Shown piece by piece: positions 13,659 to 38,595 of a DNA stretch of 64,000 nucleotides (the stretch's first letter is position 1; each line of letters opens with the position of its first letter). The notes below the pieces were generated by a model. The model searched no databases. It saw only the letters and a program-made list of their open reading frames with translations, and was not told the origin of the DNA. The stretch lies in NCBI RefSeq assembly GCF_011290385.1, contig NZ_CP049785.1, positions 262,317 through 326,316 of the forward strand, given 5' to 3'. Origin of the DNA: Blattabacterium sp. DPU (GTDB lineage: Bacteria > Bacteroidota > Bacteroidia > Flavobacteriales > Blattabacteriaceae). A program made the position numbers and the translations under genes.

Positions 13659-14159
13659 ATGGAGAATTATATAAGTATAATGAATGATATTGATACTTTC
13701 ATATTTGATGTCGATGGAGTATTGACAGATTGTACTTTAAACTTGCTCCCAGATGGAAATTTAGTAAGAAAAATGTTTGTTAAAGATGGATATGCAATGC
13801 AATTAGCAAAAAAAAAGGGATATAATTTATGTATTATTACAAGTGGAGCTGATTTGATGGTCTTCAGACGTTTGAGAGGATTAAATATTCGTCATATTTA
13901 TCAAAGAGTGGATAATAAAAAAAAATATTTAGATGAATATTGTAATATTTTAAATATTACTAAAAAAAAAATACTTTATATGGGAGATGATATTCCTGAT
14001 ATTGAAATCATGAAATCTGTGGCTTTGCCTTGCTCTCCAATAGATGCAGTACAGGAAGTTAAAGATATATCTAAGTATGTATCTCCTAAAAAGGGAGGTA
14101 GAGGTTGCGTAAGAGATGTTATAGAGAAAACTCTAAAAATACAGAAAAATTGGATTTGA
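13659..14159 (+). CDS. kdsC: HAD phosphatase, KdsC-like
   Basis: 166-residue single-domain HAD hydrolase of the KDO-8-phosphate phosphatase subfamily. The nucleophile motif is FDVDGVLTD (Asp17, Asp19), motif II is IITSG, and motif III is MGDDIPDIEIM. KdsC releases phosphate from KDO-8-phosphate for lipopolysaccharide inner core. Related HAD members act on other sugar phosphates, and no other KDO gene is in the window, so the substrate is inferred. The last codons begin a short TTGGATTTG repeat that runs on past the stop. Confidence 0.85.
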   Translation: MENYISIMNDIDTFIFDVDGVLTDCTLNLLPDGNLVRKMFVKDGYAMQLAKKKGYNLCIITSGADLMVFRRLRGLNIRHIYQRVDNKKKYLDEYCNILNITKKKILYMGDDIPDIEIMKSVALPCSPIDAVQEVKDISKYVSPKKGGRGCVRDVIEKTLKIQKNWI

Positions 14160-14183: not shown

Positions 14184-14211
14184 AAAATAGTGTCTTACAA
14201 GACACTATTTT
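14184..14211. terminator. Bidirectional rho-independent-like terminator between kdsC and groEL
   Basis: A perfect 13-bp inverted repeat, AAAATAGTGTCTT then AC then AAGACACTATTTT. The flanking A-run on the left and T-run on the right give a U-tract in either direction. In practice the two innermost pairs open to form the loop. It sits between two convergent genes and can end both the kdsC and the groESL transcripts. It is one of the few clear terminators in the window. Confidence 0.85.
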
Positions 14212-14225
14212 AATTTTACATCTTT

Positions 14226-15875
<1,650 letters not shown>

Positions 15876-15914: not shown

Positions 15915-16193
15915 TCATATAATAGCTATTATATCAGATTCTCGCATTATAAGATATTCCTCTCCTTCCCATTTCAATTCTGTACCAGAATACTTACCAT
16001 ACAAAACTCTATCTCCTTCTTTTAAATTCATGGGTTCATCTTTTTTTCCTTTTCCTACTGCTATTATGGTTCCTTTTTGTGGTTTTTCTTTGGCTGTATC
16101 AGGAATAATAATACCTGAAGCAGTTTTTGTTTCAGCAGGATCAGGTTGTACGAGAACGCGATCTGCTAAAGGTTTAATCTTTACTTCCACCAT
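15915..16193 (-). CDS. groES: Co-chaperonin GroES
   Basis: 92-residue co-chaperonin starting [16 protein letters not shown], with the mobile loop around residues 20-33 ([13 protein letters not shown]) and the C-terminal DIIAII. It is the first gene of the groES-groEL pair. The 112 bases between secG and groES carry a 15-bp palindrome and a sigma-54-type -24/-12 element, suggesting the pair has its own promoter despite being in line with the upstream cluster. Confidence 0.98.
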
Positions 16194-16235
16194 ATTATAA
16201 ATAATTTTTAAGGTTAATGGTTCTAATTATCAAAT

Positions 16236-16252
16236 TAGCCAAAAACATGCCA
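16236..16252 (-). promoter_or_regulatory. Candidate sigma-54 (-24/-12) promoter of groESL
   Basis: On the minus strand the bases read TGGCATG-TTTT-TGGCTA. The GG (16251-16250) and GC (16239-16238) dinucleotides are separated by exactly ten bases, and the match to the consensus TGGCAYG-N4-TTGCW has a single mismatch (G for the second T of TTGC). The predicted start, about 12 bases beyond the GC, would leave a leader of roughly 30 bases before the groES ATG. An overlapping TAATTTG resembles a Bacteroidota housekeeping -7 box and is the rival reading. Confidence 0.55.
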
Positions 16253-16283
16253 AATGAAAAATTTTTTATTTTAACGAGACTAA

Positions 16284-16298
16284 ATGCCATTATGGCAT
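16284..16298. promoter_or_regulatory. Perfect 7-1-7 palindrome upstream of groES
   Basis: ATGCCAT-T-ATGGCAT, a perfect 15-bp palindrome centred about 40 bases upstream of the putative -24 element. Read on the minus strand it contains ATGCCATAATG, an 11-mer also present on the plus strand in the palindrome upstream of dnaK. It lies 7 bases downstream of the secG stop. Candidate binding site for a dimeric regulator such as the Fis-type HTH of the nearby sigma-54 activator. Confidence 0.55.
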
Positions 16299-16305
16299 AT
16301 TTTAT

Positions 16306-16551
16306 TTAATGTTTTGATTTTAGAAAAAAATTGAAAAATAAAATTAAAAAAAATATAATAATAGACAAAATCCAAGTAATATTCTCTAAAAATGTATTTG
16401 TTCTCTTAATTCCAAAAAATCTAAAATTTTTCTCCATAAAAGATTGATGAATACTTTCTTTTTTAGGATTTTGTACTAAAATCATCAATATAAGTAAAAG
16501 ACACATTATAATGATAAAAAATCCAAATATAATTATAGATATGTTTTCCAT
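16306..16551 (-). CDS. secG: Preprotein translocase subunit SecG
   Basis: 81-residue protein with two membrane helices (about 5-27 and 60-76). The connecting loop ILVQNPKKESIHQSF matches the SecG LVQ pattern; the usual glycine-rich part of the loop is replaced by a short charged stretch. It assists SecYE-mediated export at the inner membrane. Four bases downstream of the LptE-like gene, in the conserved Flavobacterial order before groES. Confidence 0.9.
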   Translation of the reverse strand: MENISIIIFGFFIIIMCLLLILMILVQNPKKESIHQSFMEKNFRFFGIKRTNTFLENITWILSIIIFFLILFFNFFLKSKH

Positions 16552-16555
16552 ATGT

Positions 16556-17053
16556 TTATTTTGTGATTTGCCAATTATTATTTGGATCGTGAAATATTTT
16601 ATGATATACCTGAATTGTTAATTTTTCTATTATTTTGTCAATAATTTCTTTTGAAAAAAGATTTTTTTTATTATAAAATTCTTCGGATACAGTAAAATTT
16701 TCTTCCCAACTTTTTTCAGGTTCAATTTGATCTTTGTAAGATATTTTCGCTGTTACTTTAATTTTTTTTAACGGATAATTTTCCATTGGAATAATGGCAT
16801 AATGTAGAAAAACACCTTCCAAAACAACATCCCCATTTTTCAATACTAAATTAGAAGGATTATGTTTCATAATATATTCTTCAATACTTTTCTTAAAATC
16901 AAAAGAAATAGATCTTTTAGGTATATTAACTACTTCTGAAATATCTCCTATTTCTATTGTCTTATTTGCATCAAATAATGATGAAAAAGATGAATGATAA
17001 CAACTGACTATCATAAAAAACATGAAAAAAAAAATAATTTTTTTATAATCCAT
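16556..17053 (-). CDS. LptE-like outer-membrane lipoprotein
   Basis: 165-residue protein with a short basic N-terminus, a hydrophobic signal segment and a lipobox ending at Cys18 (MIVSC), so it should be lipidated after export. The mature part has the beta-rich layout of LptE-family proteins, which plug the LptD channel for lipopolysaccharide insertion. The call rests mainly on its place between the sigma-54 activator and secG, where Flavobacteria carry LptE. It overlaps the activator gene by 11 bases. Confidence 0.75.
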   Translation of the reverse strand: MDYKKIIFFFMFFMIVSCYHSSFSSLFDANKTIEIGDISEVVNIPKRSISFDFKKSIEEYIMKHNPSNLVLKNGDVVLEGVFLHYAIIPMENYPLKKIKVTAKISYKDQIEPEKSWEENFTVSEEFYNKKNLFSKEIIDKIIEKLTIQVYHKIFHDPNNNWQITK

Positions 17054-18296
17054 ACTGTTTAATTTTTCTATATAATGTTCTTTCTGAAATTCCTAATTCT
17101 TTTGCTGCCTTTTTTCTTTTTCCATTATTTTTCTTCAAGGCTTTTCGAATAAATTCTATTTCTTTTTTTTGTAAAGAAAAAGAAGATAAATTATTTTTCG
17201 ATAAATTTTCTTCTACTTCTTCATAATCTAAATCTTTTTTTGATTTAGATGAATCTTCTAATTGAAAAATTGAATCATTTCTATTATCAATTATTTTTCC
17301 AAAAACTTTTTCCATAAGTGGTTGATTTTTTTCAATAAATCTAGCATTAGAATTATTTTTAATCAATTGAAAAGTAATGTTTTTTAAATCATTCAAATTT
17401 TGTTTCATATCAAATAGAATTTTATAAAGAAAATCTCTTTCTCTATTATGAAAAGATGTATCTATTACATTATGTACATGATGATTAGAAAAAGATATCG
17501 ATGGAATATTTTCTGGAATATATTCTTTTAATTTTTTTGCAGAAATTTCACGTTTAGTTTCCACTACAGAAATTTGTTCTACAAAATTCTTTAATTGTCT
17601 AATATTTCCAGGCCAAGAATAATTTTCTAAATAATTTAAAGATTCTTCGGTAAATATAACTGGAGGCATATGATATTTTTCTGAAAAATCATTGGAAAAT
17701 TTTTTTAATAAAAATTTAATATCATTTTTACGAGAACGTAAAGAAGGCACATTAATTTGTACCGTATTTAAACGATAATATAAATCTTCTCTAAATTTTC
17801 CTTTTTGTATTGATTCTGTCATATTTAAATTAGTAGCTGCTACAATACGTATATTAGTCTTTTGAATTTTAGAAGACCCTACCTTCATAAATTCTCCAGA
17901 TTCTAATATTCTGAGAAGACGGACTTGTGTTGTTAAGGGTAATTCTCCTACTTCATCTAGGAAAATAGTACCTCCATTTGCTACTTCAAAATAACCTTTT
18001 CGCATATTTGTAGCTCCTGTAAAAGATCCCTTTTCATGTCCAAAAAGTTCACTATCAATAGTTCCTTCTGGAATAGCCCCACAATTTACCGCAATATAAT
18101 CATGATGTTTTCTAGAAGAATATTGGTGAATAATTTTTGGAATAAATTCTTTTCCTACTCCACTCTCTCCAAGAACTAATACAGAAATATCAGTAGGAGC
18201 TACTTGTGTCGCTTTTTCTAAGGCTCTATGCAAAGCATAATCATATCCAATAATTCCAAATTTTTGTTTAACATTTTGGATAAAGATGGATTCCAT
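17043..18296 (-). CDS. Sigma-54-dependent transcriptional activator without sensor domain
   Basis: 417-residue bacterial enhancer-binding protein. The AAA+ domain starts almost at the N-terminus: Walker A GESGVGKE (43-50), the sigma-54 contact loop GSFTGA (90-95, a variant of GAFTGA), Walker B GGTIFLDEVGELP (108-120), then the arginine-finger region FREDLYYRL. The C-terminus has a Fis-type helix-turn-helix (KKAAKELGISERTLYRKIKQYGL spread over the last 25 residues or so). There is no receiver, GAF or PAS domain, so activity is probably set by expression level or an unknown partner. Located in the cluster leading to groESL. Confidence 0.93.
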   Translation of the reverse strand: MESIFIQNVKQKFGIIGYDYALHRALEKATQVAPTDISVLVLGESGVGKEFIPKIIHQYSSRKHHDYIAVNCGAIPEGTIDSELFGHEKGSFTGATNMRKGYFEVANGGTIFLDEVGELPLTTQVRLLRILESGEFMKVGSSKIQKTNIRIVAATNLNMTESIQKGKFREDLYYRLNTVQINVPSLRSRKNDIKFLLKKFSNDFSEKYHMPPVIFTEESLNYLENYSWPGNIRQLKNFVEQISVVETKREISAKKLKEYIPENIPSISFSNHHVHNVIDTSFHNRERDFLYKILFDMKQNLNDLKNITFQLIKNNSNARFIEKNQPLMEKVFGKIIDNRNDSIFQLEDSSKSKKDLDYEEVEENLSKNNLSSFSLQKKEIEFIRKALKKNNGKRKKAAKELGISERTLYRKIKQYGL

Positions 18297-18318: not shown

Positions 18319-19641
18319 TCAATGTTTTCCTATTAAAGTTGCAGATGTAGCATTTGTTATTTCTACATGAGCTAAATCCCCTATATTTAAGTTTTTTTTA
18401 GGAAAAACTACAACTATATTTTGTGTATTTCTTCCATACCAATATTGGTTATTTTTTTTTGATTCTCCTTCTACTAAAACTTCTTCTACATTTCCTAAAT
18501 GTTCTTGCATCCTATAAAATGAATGTTTTCTTTGTAAATCAATAATTTCTTTTAATCGTCTTTTTTTAATATTTTCAGGTACATTATCTTTTAATTTTCT
18601 ATATGCATAAGTTCCAGGTCTAGGAGAATAAGAAAACATGTATCCATAATTATATTTAATTTTATTCATTAAACTTATAGTATCCTGGTGATCTTCCTCT
18701 TTCTCATTACAAAATCCAGTCATTATATCATGAGAAATAGAACATCCAGGTATAATATTTTTAATTTTTTTAACTAAAAAAAGATATTTTTCTCGTGTAT
18801 ATTTTCTGTTCATTAATTTTAATATTTTATTGCTTCCAGATTGAACAGGTAAATGAATATGTTTACAAATATTTTTATGTTGAGAAATTACTTTTAATAC
18901 TTTATCAGACATATCATGAGGATTAGATGTAGAAAATCTAATTCTCATAAAAGGAATTTCTCTAGCTAAAAAATCCAAAAGTTGTGAAAAATCTACAGTT
19001 CTATTTTCTTCTATCCATAAATAAGAATCTACATTTTGTCCTAAAAGAGTTATTTCTTTATATCCATTATGATATAAACGTTTACATTCCTCAATTATAG
19101 AATATGGATCTCGACTTCTTTCTCTACCTCTAGTAAAAGGAACGATACAAAATGTACACATATTATTACAACCTCTTGTTATGCTTAAAAAAGTTGTTAT
19201 TTTTTGATCATTTTGTTTTCTTTTTACAAAATTTATATCAGCATAAGTTTCATTTTTTTTCTTTTTATCATAAAAATATTGTTTTCCCATTATAGAATAA
19301 TAAATAAAATTAGGAATTTCTCTATAAGAATCTGGATTTACGAAAAAATCTACTATTTTTTCTTTCAATAAAAAATTTTTAATTTGTTTTGAAAAACATC
19401 CTATAATTCCAATCCAAATTTTTTTCTTTTTTCTAAAAAATTTTAATTGTTCTAATTTTTTTTTTATAGCTAATTCTGCTTTTTCTCTAATAGAACAAGC
19501 GTTTAACAATATTATATCTGCTTTATCTACGTTTTCAGATAAAACAAACCCATGGTTTGATAAAATAGAAGTAACAATATCGCTATCTGATATGTTCATT
19601 TGACAACCATAATTTTCAATATAAAAACTTTTATTTTTCAT
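18319..19641 (-). CDS. miaB: tRNA-2-methylthio-N6-dimethylallyladenosine synthase
   Basis: 440-residue radical-SAM methylthiotransferase that modifies A37 of tRNAs reading UNN codons. The N-terminal domain has three cluster cysteines (YGCQMN, NACSIREKAE, GCFSK), the radical-SAM motif is CNNMCTFC, and a C-terminal TRAM domain ends the protein. The substrate prenyl group derives from the isoprenoid route served by idi. It heads the miaB - activator - lptE-like - secG cluster and has a 15-bp palindrome in its upstream region. Confidence 0.96.
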   Translation of the reverse strand: MKNKSFYIENYGCQMNISDSDIVTSILSNHGFVLSENVDKADIILLNACSIREKAELAIKKKLEQLKFFRKKKKIWIGIIGCFSKQIKNFLLKEKIVDFFVNPDSYREIPNFIYYSIMGKQYFYDKKKKNETYADINFVKRKQNDQKITTFLSITRGCNNMCTFCIVPFTRGRERSRDPYSIIEECKRLYHNGYKEITLLGQNVDSYLWIEENRTVDFSQLLDFLAREIPFMRIRFSTSNPHDMSDKVLKVISQHKNICKHIHLPVQSGSNKILKLMNRKYTREKYLFLVKKIKNIIPGCSISHDIMTGFCNEKEEDHQDTISLMNKIKYNYGYMFSYSPRPGTYAYRKLKDNVPENIKKRRLKEIIDLQRKHSFYRMQEHLGNVEEVLVEGESKKNNQYWYGRNTQNIVVVFPKKNLNIGDLAHVEITNATSATLIGKH

Positions 19642-19660: not shown

Positions 19661-19675
19661 ATGTCATTATGACAT
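19661..19675. promoter_or_regulatory. Perfect 7-1-7 palindrome upstream of miaB
   Basis: ATGTCAT-T-ATGACAT, a perfect 15-bp palindrome centred 27 bases before the miaB ATG, in the 54-base gap after pncB. It differs from the groES palindrome only by one symmetric base change (C to T in one arm and the matching G to A in the other). No sigma-54-type element is seen beside it. Confidence 0.5.
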
Positions 19676-36562: not shown

Positions 36563-38458
36563 TTATTTTACTTCTTCATAATCTACATCTTGTACATTTC
36601 CATTTCCTTTATTACTTTTTTCTTCATCTTCTTTTTTATTTGATTGTTGATTTGCATTTTTTGTATTATAAATTTCTTGAGAAGCATTAGTCCAAGCTTC
36701 GTTTAATTTTTTCATGTAATTTTCAATAGAAGTAAAATCTTTTTTAAAGTGAGCTTCTTTCAATTTTTTTAAAGAATTTTCTATATTTTTTTTATTATTT
36801 TCAGATAATTTATCCCCATAATCTTTTAATTGTTTTTCAGATTGAAATATTTGATTATCTGCCGCATTTAATTTTTCTATTTCTTGTTTTATTTTTTCAT
36901 CTTTTTGGGCATTTTCTTTTGCCTCTTTTTTCATTTTTTCTATCTCTTCTTGATTTAAACCAGAGGAGGTTTCAATACGTATAGACTGTTCTTTTCCTGT
37001 TCCTTTATCTTTTGCAGATACATTAAGTATTCCATTCGCATCTATGTCAAAAGTTACCTCAATTTGAGGAATTCCTCTGGGTGCTGGAGGAATATCTAAT
37101 AAATCAAAACGACCTATTTCTTTATTATCATTAAACATAGGTCTTTCGCCTTGTCCTACACGTATGGTTACGGCTGATTGGTTATCAGATGCTGTAGAAA
37201 AAATTTCTGATTTTTTAGTTGGTATAGTTGTATTAGATTCTATAAGTTTAGTAAAAACGCCTCCTAAAGTTTCAATTCCTAAAGACAAAGGTGTTACATC
37301 TAATAATAATACATTTTGTACATCTCCTGTTAATACTCCTCCTTGTATAGCCGCTCCAATAGCGACGACTTCATCTGGATTTACTCCTTTAGATGGTTTT
37401 TTACCAAAAAATTTTTCTACCTCTTCTTGTACTTTTGGAATACGTGTGGATCCTCCTACTAAAATCACTTCATCTATATTTTTAGTAGTTAAATTTGCAT
37501 CTTTCAATGCTTTATAACAAGGACTTATAGAACGTTGTATTAATTTTTCGGATAATTGTTCAAATTTTGAACGAGTTAATGTTAAAACCAAATGCTTAGG
37601 ACCTGATTCTGTAGCTGTAATATAAGGAAGATTTATTTCTGTTTGATTTGAAGAAGATAATTCTATTTTAGCTTTTTCAGACGCTTCTTTTAAACGTTGT
37701 AAAGCCATAGGATCTTTTCTTAAATCCAAGGACTCTTTGGATTTGAATTCATTAGCTAAATAATTAATGAGAACTTGATCAAAATCATCACCTCCTAAAT
37801 GAGTATCTCCATTAGTTGATAAAACTTCAAAAACTCCATCTCCCAATTCTAATATAGAAACATCAAAAGTTCCTCCTCCTAAATCGTATACAACAATTTT
37901 TTTATTTTGATTACTTTTGTCTAATCCATATGCTAAAGCAGCAGCAGTAGGTTCATTTATTATTCTTTCTACTTTTAATCCTGCTATTTCTCCAGCTTCT
38001 TTCGTTGCTTGTCTTTGTGCATCATTAAAATAAGCAGGAACAGTAATCACTGCTCTATTAATTTCTTCTCCCAGATAATCTTCAGCTGTTTTTTTCATTT
38101 TTTGCAAAATCATAGCAGATATCTCCTGGGGAGCGTATAATCTTTTTTCTATATCAACACGAGGAGTATTATTTCCTCCTTTTATTACTTTATAAGGAAT
38201 ATGTTTCAATTCTTCAGTGACTTCTGAATACATTCTCCCCATAAATCTTTTTATTGAAAAAATAGTTTTTTGAGGATTAGTAACAGCTTGTCTTTTTGCG
38301 GGATCACCTATTTTTCTTTCTCCTCCTTCAACAAAAGCCACTATAGATGGGGTAGTTCTTTTTCCTTCTGAATTAGGGATAACAACAGGATCATTGATTT
38401 CCATAACAGCGACACAAGAATTTGTTGTTCCTAGATCTATTCCTATAATTTTACTCAT
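36563..38458 (-). CDS. dnaK: Molecular chaperone DnaK (Hsp70)
   Basis: 631-residue Hsp70. The nucleotide-binding domain opens with [15 protein letters not shown] and has [13 protein letters not shown] and the [11 protein letters not shown] motif. Substrate-binding domain and helical lid follow, ending in an acidic tail ([10 protein letters not shown]). Stand-alone gene without dnaJ or grpE beside it. Its upstream region has a 15-bp palindrome related to that before groES, which suggests shared control of the two chaperone systems. Confidence 0.98.
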
Positions 38459-38506
38459 TTTGTTACGTTTTTTTCATATGTTAATTTCATTGAATAGCAC
38501 TCCAAT

Positions 38507-38521
38507 CATTATGCCATAATG
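38507..38521. promoter_or_regulatory. Perfect 7-1-7 palindrome upstream of dnaK
   Basis: CATTATG-C-CATAATG, a perfect 15-bp palindrome centred about 56 bases before the dnaK ATG. It contains ATGCCATAATG, identical to an 11-mer in the groES palindrome read on the other strand. The minus strand from here reads TGGCATAATGATTGGA, close to a sigma-54 element but with GG instead of GC at -12. The region is shared with divergent rplM. Confidence 0.55.
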
Positions 38522-38580: not shown

Positions 38581-38595
38581 ATGACAAAAAGTCAT
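38581..38595. other. Small hairpin in the rplM leader region
   Basis: ATGAC-AAAAA-GTCAT, a 5-bp stem with a 5-base loop, 50 bases before the rplM start. It may be a leader element for the rplM-rpsI unit or chance pairing in AT-rich DNA. Apart from this and the dnaK palindrome, the 186-base gap shows no gene. Confidence 0.3.

Follow-up and report, generated by a model that had tools for sequence, protein, structure and literature searches.

The groES-groEL operon of Blattabacterium, a bacterial symbiont of cockroaches, very probably has a working sigma-54 promoter, at which RpoN and a single activator, acting through an upstream dyad, would drive groESL and other chaperone operons in a circuit inherited from free-living Flavobacteriales. 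We arrived at this reading by comparing genome sequences, starting from a 64,000-nucleotide stretch of Blattabacterium sp. DPU (the window; positions 262317-326316 of the single 623,008-base contig of this 623-kb genome) and extending to 49 genomes of the genus and to other Flavobacteriales.

A conserved promoter before groES

On the minus strand of the window, the gene order is miaB-like, sigma-54 activator, LptE-like, secG, groES, groEL. The groES gene (15915..16193; Pfam Cpn10, 5.7e-35) and groEL (14226..15869; NCBIfam GroEL TIGR02348) are both on this strand, and a 12-pair terminator-like hairpin lies at 14184-14211, between the end of groEL and a convergent gene at 13659-14159. The proposed groESL promoter, TTTGGCATGTTTTTGGCT (16237..16254, minus strand), sits between secG and groES, with its -24 GG at 16251-16250 and its -12 GC at 16239-16238. 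A sequence-only reading of this DNA had described a sigma-54-type promoter here, with exact GG-N10-GC spacing, some 43 bases before groES and with an activator gene three genes upstream. We found the sequence as described (TGGCATGTTTTTGGCT, minus strand, 16252-16237) and the spacing exact, measured 43 nt from the end of the site to the groES ATG at 16193, and confirmed the order activator, LptE-like, secG, groES. That reading had counted only one consensus mismatch, but there are two relative to TGGCACG-N4-TTGCW; directly before the -12 GC, the consensus T is replaced by G. From the position of the boxes, the 5' end of the groESL transcript is expected near 16226.

A lone match in so AT-rich a window is weak proof, because a scan for TGGCACG-N4-TTGCW allowing up to three mismatches found 23 sites where 18.1 were expected. 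The groES site is the sole exact match to TGGCAY-N5-TKGCW in the whole genome, and what takes it beyond chance is its conservation across the genus. We detected groES in all 49 genus genomes, and 44 of them, counting one displaced copy, share the 18-mer base for base. The remaining five differ from it by 1, 1, 3, 3, and 4 mismatches and all retain GG-N10-GC, which stands before groES in 49/49. The most widely shared 12-mer inside the site occurs in 46 of the 49 genomes, compared to 23 for the most widely shared one outside it. The rpoN gene was likewise found in 49/49, and the copy in our genome carries the activator-interacting (AID), core-binding (CBD), and DNA-binding (DBD) Pfam domains. 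The persistence of the GG/GC pair and the presence of rpoN both support the sigma-54-type promoter first read from the sequence.

In the genome with the displaced copy, G009, about 140 nt of extra AT-rich sequence lies between promoter and groES (L175, G009:C1:415500-416600), a distance of about 43 nt elsewhere. Its intact 18-mer is found 180 nt before the groES ATG, and the dyad described below is still about 51 bp away from the promoter.

We then compared these with 73 of 99 other Flavobacteriales genomes with groES; the comparison spans 15 families and includes the symbiont's own family through a 300-kb relative (G063). In 70/73 of these outgroups, TGGCAY-N7-G occurs in the 110 nt before groES; 100 shuffles gave a mean of 0.53 and at most 2. 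The -12 C is not general among them, with GG-N10-GC present in 28/73. The idea that sigma-54 control of groESL would be an unusual circuit thus did not hold: a similar site precedes groES in nearly all of these genomes, and in Flavobacterium psychrophilum, according to the available text of PMC9723704, mapped starts with a sigma-54 motif, SM4, precede groES-groEL, lon, dnaK, grpE-dnaJ, htpG, and clpB. Such control is the rule in Flavobacteriales, already known from F. psychrophilum.

A dyad in helical phase with the promoter

Upstream of the promoter lies a dyad, ATGCCATAATGGCAT (16284..16298, minus strand), centered 40 bp upstream of the -24 GG and with its core, TGNCA-N3-TGNCA, at 16297-16285. 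The sequence-only reading had recognized the groESL promoter but neither this dyad nor the further chaperone operons discussed below. Within the genus, 48/49 genomes have the 13-mer at 7 or 8 of its 8 fixed bases, and 32 of these 48 dyads are perfect. The variable pair at positions 3 and 11 is T-A in 29, C-G in 3, A-T in 3, and asymmetric in 13. The distance from dyad center to GG is 20, 40-43, or 50-54 bp, and on a tree of neighboring coding sequence, in which several branches are weak, the 4x and 5x spacing classes require at least five changes. These changes, each of about one helical turn, keep the phase.

The one genus genome in which we searched for the groES dyad and did not find it, G015 (B. 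cuenoti EUPHYsp, 511 kb; L052 / L248), is the smallest of the set and has a groES promoter with three mismatches. It retains rpoN, the activator, and both the dnaK dyad and the dnaK promoter, and may represent a circuit in decay. Separately, the first Blattabacterium Bge genome paper (PMC2768785) mentions, in its available text, 33 bp of intergenic DNA upstream of GroEL that were missed by pyrosequencing, with secondary structure blamed for the failure; this uncovered stretch may be the dyad (window 16284-16298).

Of the 70 outgroups with the promoter, 68 also have, no more than 110 nt upstream of the -24 box, a dyad that agrees with at least 7 of the 8 fixed bases, compared to a mean of 1.6 and a maximum of 5 in shuffles; matches at 8 of 8 occur in 28 outgroups versus 0.03 in shuffles. 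The dyad-to-(-24) distances cluster near 20, 31, 41, 51, 72, and 84 bp, and a scan of periods from 6 to 16 peaked at 10.5 bp (R 0.912, n=68). Rayleigh p-values for such data ignore shared ancestry and the choice of the best site in each genome, and fairer guides are a set reduced to a single value for each family and distance (R 0.875, n=36) and weak decoy sites (R 0.067, n=454). Because the spacing of the dyad follows the helix, a protein bound to it would face the promoter from one side, as expected for an activator's binding site. On the basis of its conservation and helical phasing, we propose that the dyad is the activator-binding enhancer (UAS) of this sigma-54 promoter.

The dyad follows the secG stop and can form a hairpin of six pairs (-6.1 kcal/mol, z -1.8), which could make it a terminator after secG or, alternatively, a repressor operator of the HrcA-CIRCE type. 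We regard either role as quite improbable. No T run follows the dyad on the secG strand, and its symmetry continues through the center, which a hairpin loop does not need. The same dyad also stands before grpE, htpG, and miaB, and its helical phasing to the -24 box holds across 68 outgroups, observations that argue against both a terminator and an operator. A search of the window for a CIRCE-like element, allowing up to three mismatches, gave 0 matches. We likewise rejected a reading of the dyad as an RNA hairpin.

Could the conserved block instead be the -35 part of an RpoD promoter, with sigma-54 uninvolved? A sequence TTGGCA-N16-GATAAT does overlap the site at 16253-16226, with 10/12 consensus matches. 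However, its -10 half (at least 5 of 6 bases at that spacing) is present in 2/46 genomes with the core site, while shifted positions give 4-7, and the Bacteroidota box TAnnTTTG was found downstream of the site in 0/46. Sigma-70 matches in the stretch number 25 against 23.0 expected, and the part that is conserved is the -24/-12 pair at fixed spacing. We thus consider an RpoD promoter very unlikely. We give just as little weight to the possibility that the sigma-54 promoter is a relic kept by descent, while groESL expression has passed to read-through from secG or to some other promoter. Dyad or promoter is indeed weaker in a few genomes (G015, G011, and G019), but a relic would not readily account for the retention of all 18 bases in 44/49 genomes amid scrambled intergenic sequence, for G009 holding both elements intact behind its AT-rich insertion of about 140 nt, or for phase being kept through at least five one-turn changes in spacing. 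A sigma-54 promoter in use, with an enhancer upstream, is the reading we carry forward.

The activator and the other chaperone operons

The activator operon begins with a radical-SAM methylthiotransferase gene (18319..19641, minus strand; Pfam UPF0004, Radical_SAM, and TRAM), which we take to be miaB. It is followed by the sigma-54 activator (a bEBP; 17043..18296, minus strand), with an AAA+ domain, a GSFTGA loop, and a C-terminal Fis-type HTH. Between the activator and secG (16306..16551, minus strand; Pfam SecG, 8.8e-13) is an ORF for a small lipoprotein-like protein (16556..17053, minus strand), for which Pfam and NCBIfam searches gave no match; we call it LptE-like by its position, following the F. 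psychrophilum table in PMC9723704 as available in part.

The activator is present in 49/49 genus genomes, with matches that span residues 1-6 to 417 and no internal stop. Its AAA+ domain begins at residue 15, and a domain search found no N-terminal receiver domain. It is the sole strong PF00158 protein of its genome, at 227.6 bits compared to about 36 bits or less elsewhere; the three other genes with PF00158 matches are Clp-type ATPases that, from their translations, we read as ClpB-like, ClpC-like, and ClpX-like, the last of them in the window. Each of the 30 outgroup genomes tried has an orthologue, 54-64% identical. GAFTGA or GSFTGA is present in 28/28 orthologues parsed (our script missed two of the 30), and the orthologues share the C-terminal HTH, which is among the best-conserved parts. 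Against the NCBIfam PspF model the activator scored 277.2 bits, under the cut-off of 443.55, and it fell far under the cut-offs for NtrC and NifA. An AlphaFold model was mediocre (mean pLDDT 68) and was set aside. We infer that this activator is the partner of this dyad, given that it is the only one left in the genome and that both are conserved.

A search of the DPU genome for the strict dyad gave exactly three sites, which precede groES, grpE-dnaJ, and miaB. The grpE-dnaJ copy is accompanied by a promoter, TTGGCAAATCTTTTGCC. Searching all 49 genomes for dyad plus promoter, with patterns that accept a gap of up to 42 nt, we recovered groES sites in 29, grpE-type sites in 36, and two stray matches; the reversed dyad-promoter pattern gave 0 in the 49 genomes. 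Several genomes lack a composite groES match despite having the site because their gap exceeds 42 nt. Eight grpE-type sites that we fetched, plus the one in our own genome, precede a GrpE-like start, and the others were assigned by sequence and map position. An earlier relaxed pattern demanded TG at the -12 box, which by design ruled out the groES and grpE sites, and it returned only the htpG site of our genome. In G033 (L169, G033:C1:87450-88900), the grpE dyad-promoter block appears twice, 633 bp apart; the N-terminal part of GrpE there contains a long run of repeats, a single N lies between the two blocks, and the doubling is either a duplication or an assembly artefact.

For dnaK, a sigma-54-like promoter, TGGCATAATGATTG (38503..38516, minus strand), lies 44 nt before the ATG at 38458, and a proposed enhancer, ATGACTTTTTGTCAT (38581..38595, minus strand), is centered 73 bp upstream of the -24 GG. 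An identical 13-mer, TGACTTTTTGTCA, and promoter, TGGCATAATSATTG, are found in 21/21 genomes examined, with dyad-promoter distances that are less strictly phased (R 0.68). The htpG gene has -24/-12 boxes in 14/20 genomes and lacks them in 6/20; among the 14 that carry the boxes, 11 have a dyad with at least 7 of 8 fixed bases, and 12 are at 19-22 bp. Thus, the groESL, dnaK, grpE-dnaJ, and htpG members of the F. psychrophilum SM4 chaperone set all have sites in our genome; neither clpB nor the ClpC-like gene there showed a dyad plus promoter. The dyad before miaB, ATGTCATAATGACAT (19661..19675, minus strand), 19 nt before the start codon, differs in kind: 17/21 genomes examined match at least 7 of its 8 fixed bases, and no sigma-54 box was found downstream of it in any of the 21. 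We propose it as a self-regulation site, as a dyad without a promoter at the activator's own operon suggests that the activator limits its own synthesis.

These targets also bear on why sigma-54 was kept. In the available text of PMC3971599, RpoD and RpoN are retained in Blattabacterium, Walczuchella, and Uzinura, and retention of RpoN is called unusual and, in Walczuchella, tentatively tied to nitrogen use. That sigma-54 serves nitrogen metabolism here, with groES a minor side target, seems to us very improbable, as the only activator has no receiver domain and scores far under NtrC and NifA cut-offs, and across the 49 genomes the dyad-promoter pair occurs before chaperone genes, with only the two stray matches.

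A proposed chaperone circuit

In the circuit we propose, RNA polymerase with RpoN would bind the -24/-12 boxes before groES, and the PspF-like activator encoded three genes upstream would bind TGNCA-N3-TGNCA, acting on one face of the DNA from two to eight helical turns upstream. ATP hydrolysis by the activator would then open the complex, and transcription of groES-groEL would depend on it. The same dyad-promoter pair would drive grpE-dnaJ, dnaK, and a partly decayed htpG, and the promoterless dyad before the miaB-activator operon would let the activator restrain its own production. As to a signal, if there is one, our guess is that the receiver-less activator is either always on or, like sigma-32 and HrcA, kept in check by chaperones.

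The activator resembles PspF-type proteins in having an AAA+ core and HTH without an N-terminal regulatory domain and in working at sigma-54 promoters. PspF limits its own synthesis. Unlike PspF, the Blattabacterium activator has a Fis-type HTH after a linker of more than 100 residues and has chaperone rather than psp targets. Heat-shock circuits based on sigma-32 or HrcA-CIRCE yield GroESL, DnaK-DnaJ-GrpE, and HtpG, an output shared with the circuit proposed here, which would differ from them in being positively controlled, through sigma-54 and an activator that depends on ATP; the window has no CIRCE.

The closest likeness is to F. psychrophilum, which, as far as the available text of PMC9723704 goes, shares with Blattabacterium the sigma factor, the -24/-12 motif, the groES-groEL, dnaK, grpE-dnaJ, and htpG targets, and an activator gene that adjoins lptE and, by locus tags, is near groES. 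In contrast to the single activator of Blattabacterium, F. psychrophilum has three, and its further targets include lon, clpB, motility, and lipoproteins; our searches in Blattabacterium found chaperone targets only, with no site at clpB. The same portion of PMC9723704 counts the three PF00158 proteins without assigning any to genes, and names neither a binding site nor an activator for the chaperone group. Chaperone genes are enriched among predicted sigma-54 targets in Flavobacteriia (PMC12316311), and the available text of that paper has neither "upstream activat" nor "UAS". Its reference 80, given for a statement on sigma-54-dependent transcription of groES and grpE in other bacteria, is a paper on nitrogen recycling in Blattabacterium and seems to have been cited by mistake. 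A literature search whose coverage lay largely outside subscription journals turned up no paper that deals with either the enhancer or the circuit in Blattabacterium. The elements that appear to be new are the enhancer, its phasing, the activator that likely binds it, and, in a reduced genome, the seemingly exclusive use of sigma-54 for chaperones.

When endosymbiont genomes become very small, alternative sigma factors are usually among the losses. The circuit was probably inherited from free-living Flavobacteriales and is probably the reason that rpoN survives in an endosymbiont genome of 0.5-0.64 Mb. A stronger version, which we hold to be reasonably likely, is that one sigma factor, one activator free of signal domains, and one enhancer word are used only for chaperones and the activator operon; TGNCA-N3-TGNCA would then be a hitherto undescribed binding site, recognized throughout Flavobacteriales by a chaperone activator working at unusually close range, two to eight turns, and this circuit would be why rpoN outlives nearly all other regulators. 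If true, a chaperone-only sigma-54 circuit would explain the retention of RpoN in these symbionts and link it to the dependence of endosymbionts on GroEL, and the helical phasing offers an activator-enhancer pair that can be tested throughout the order, culturable flavobacteria included.
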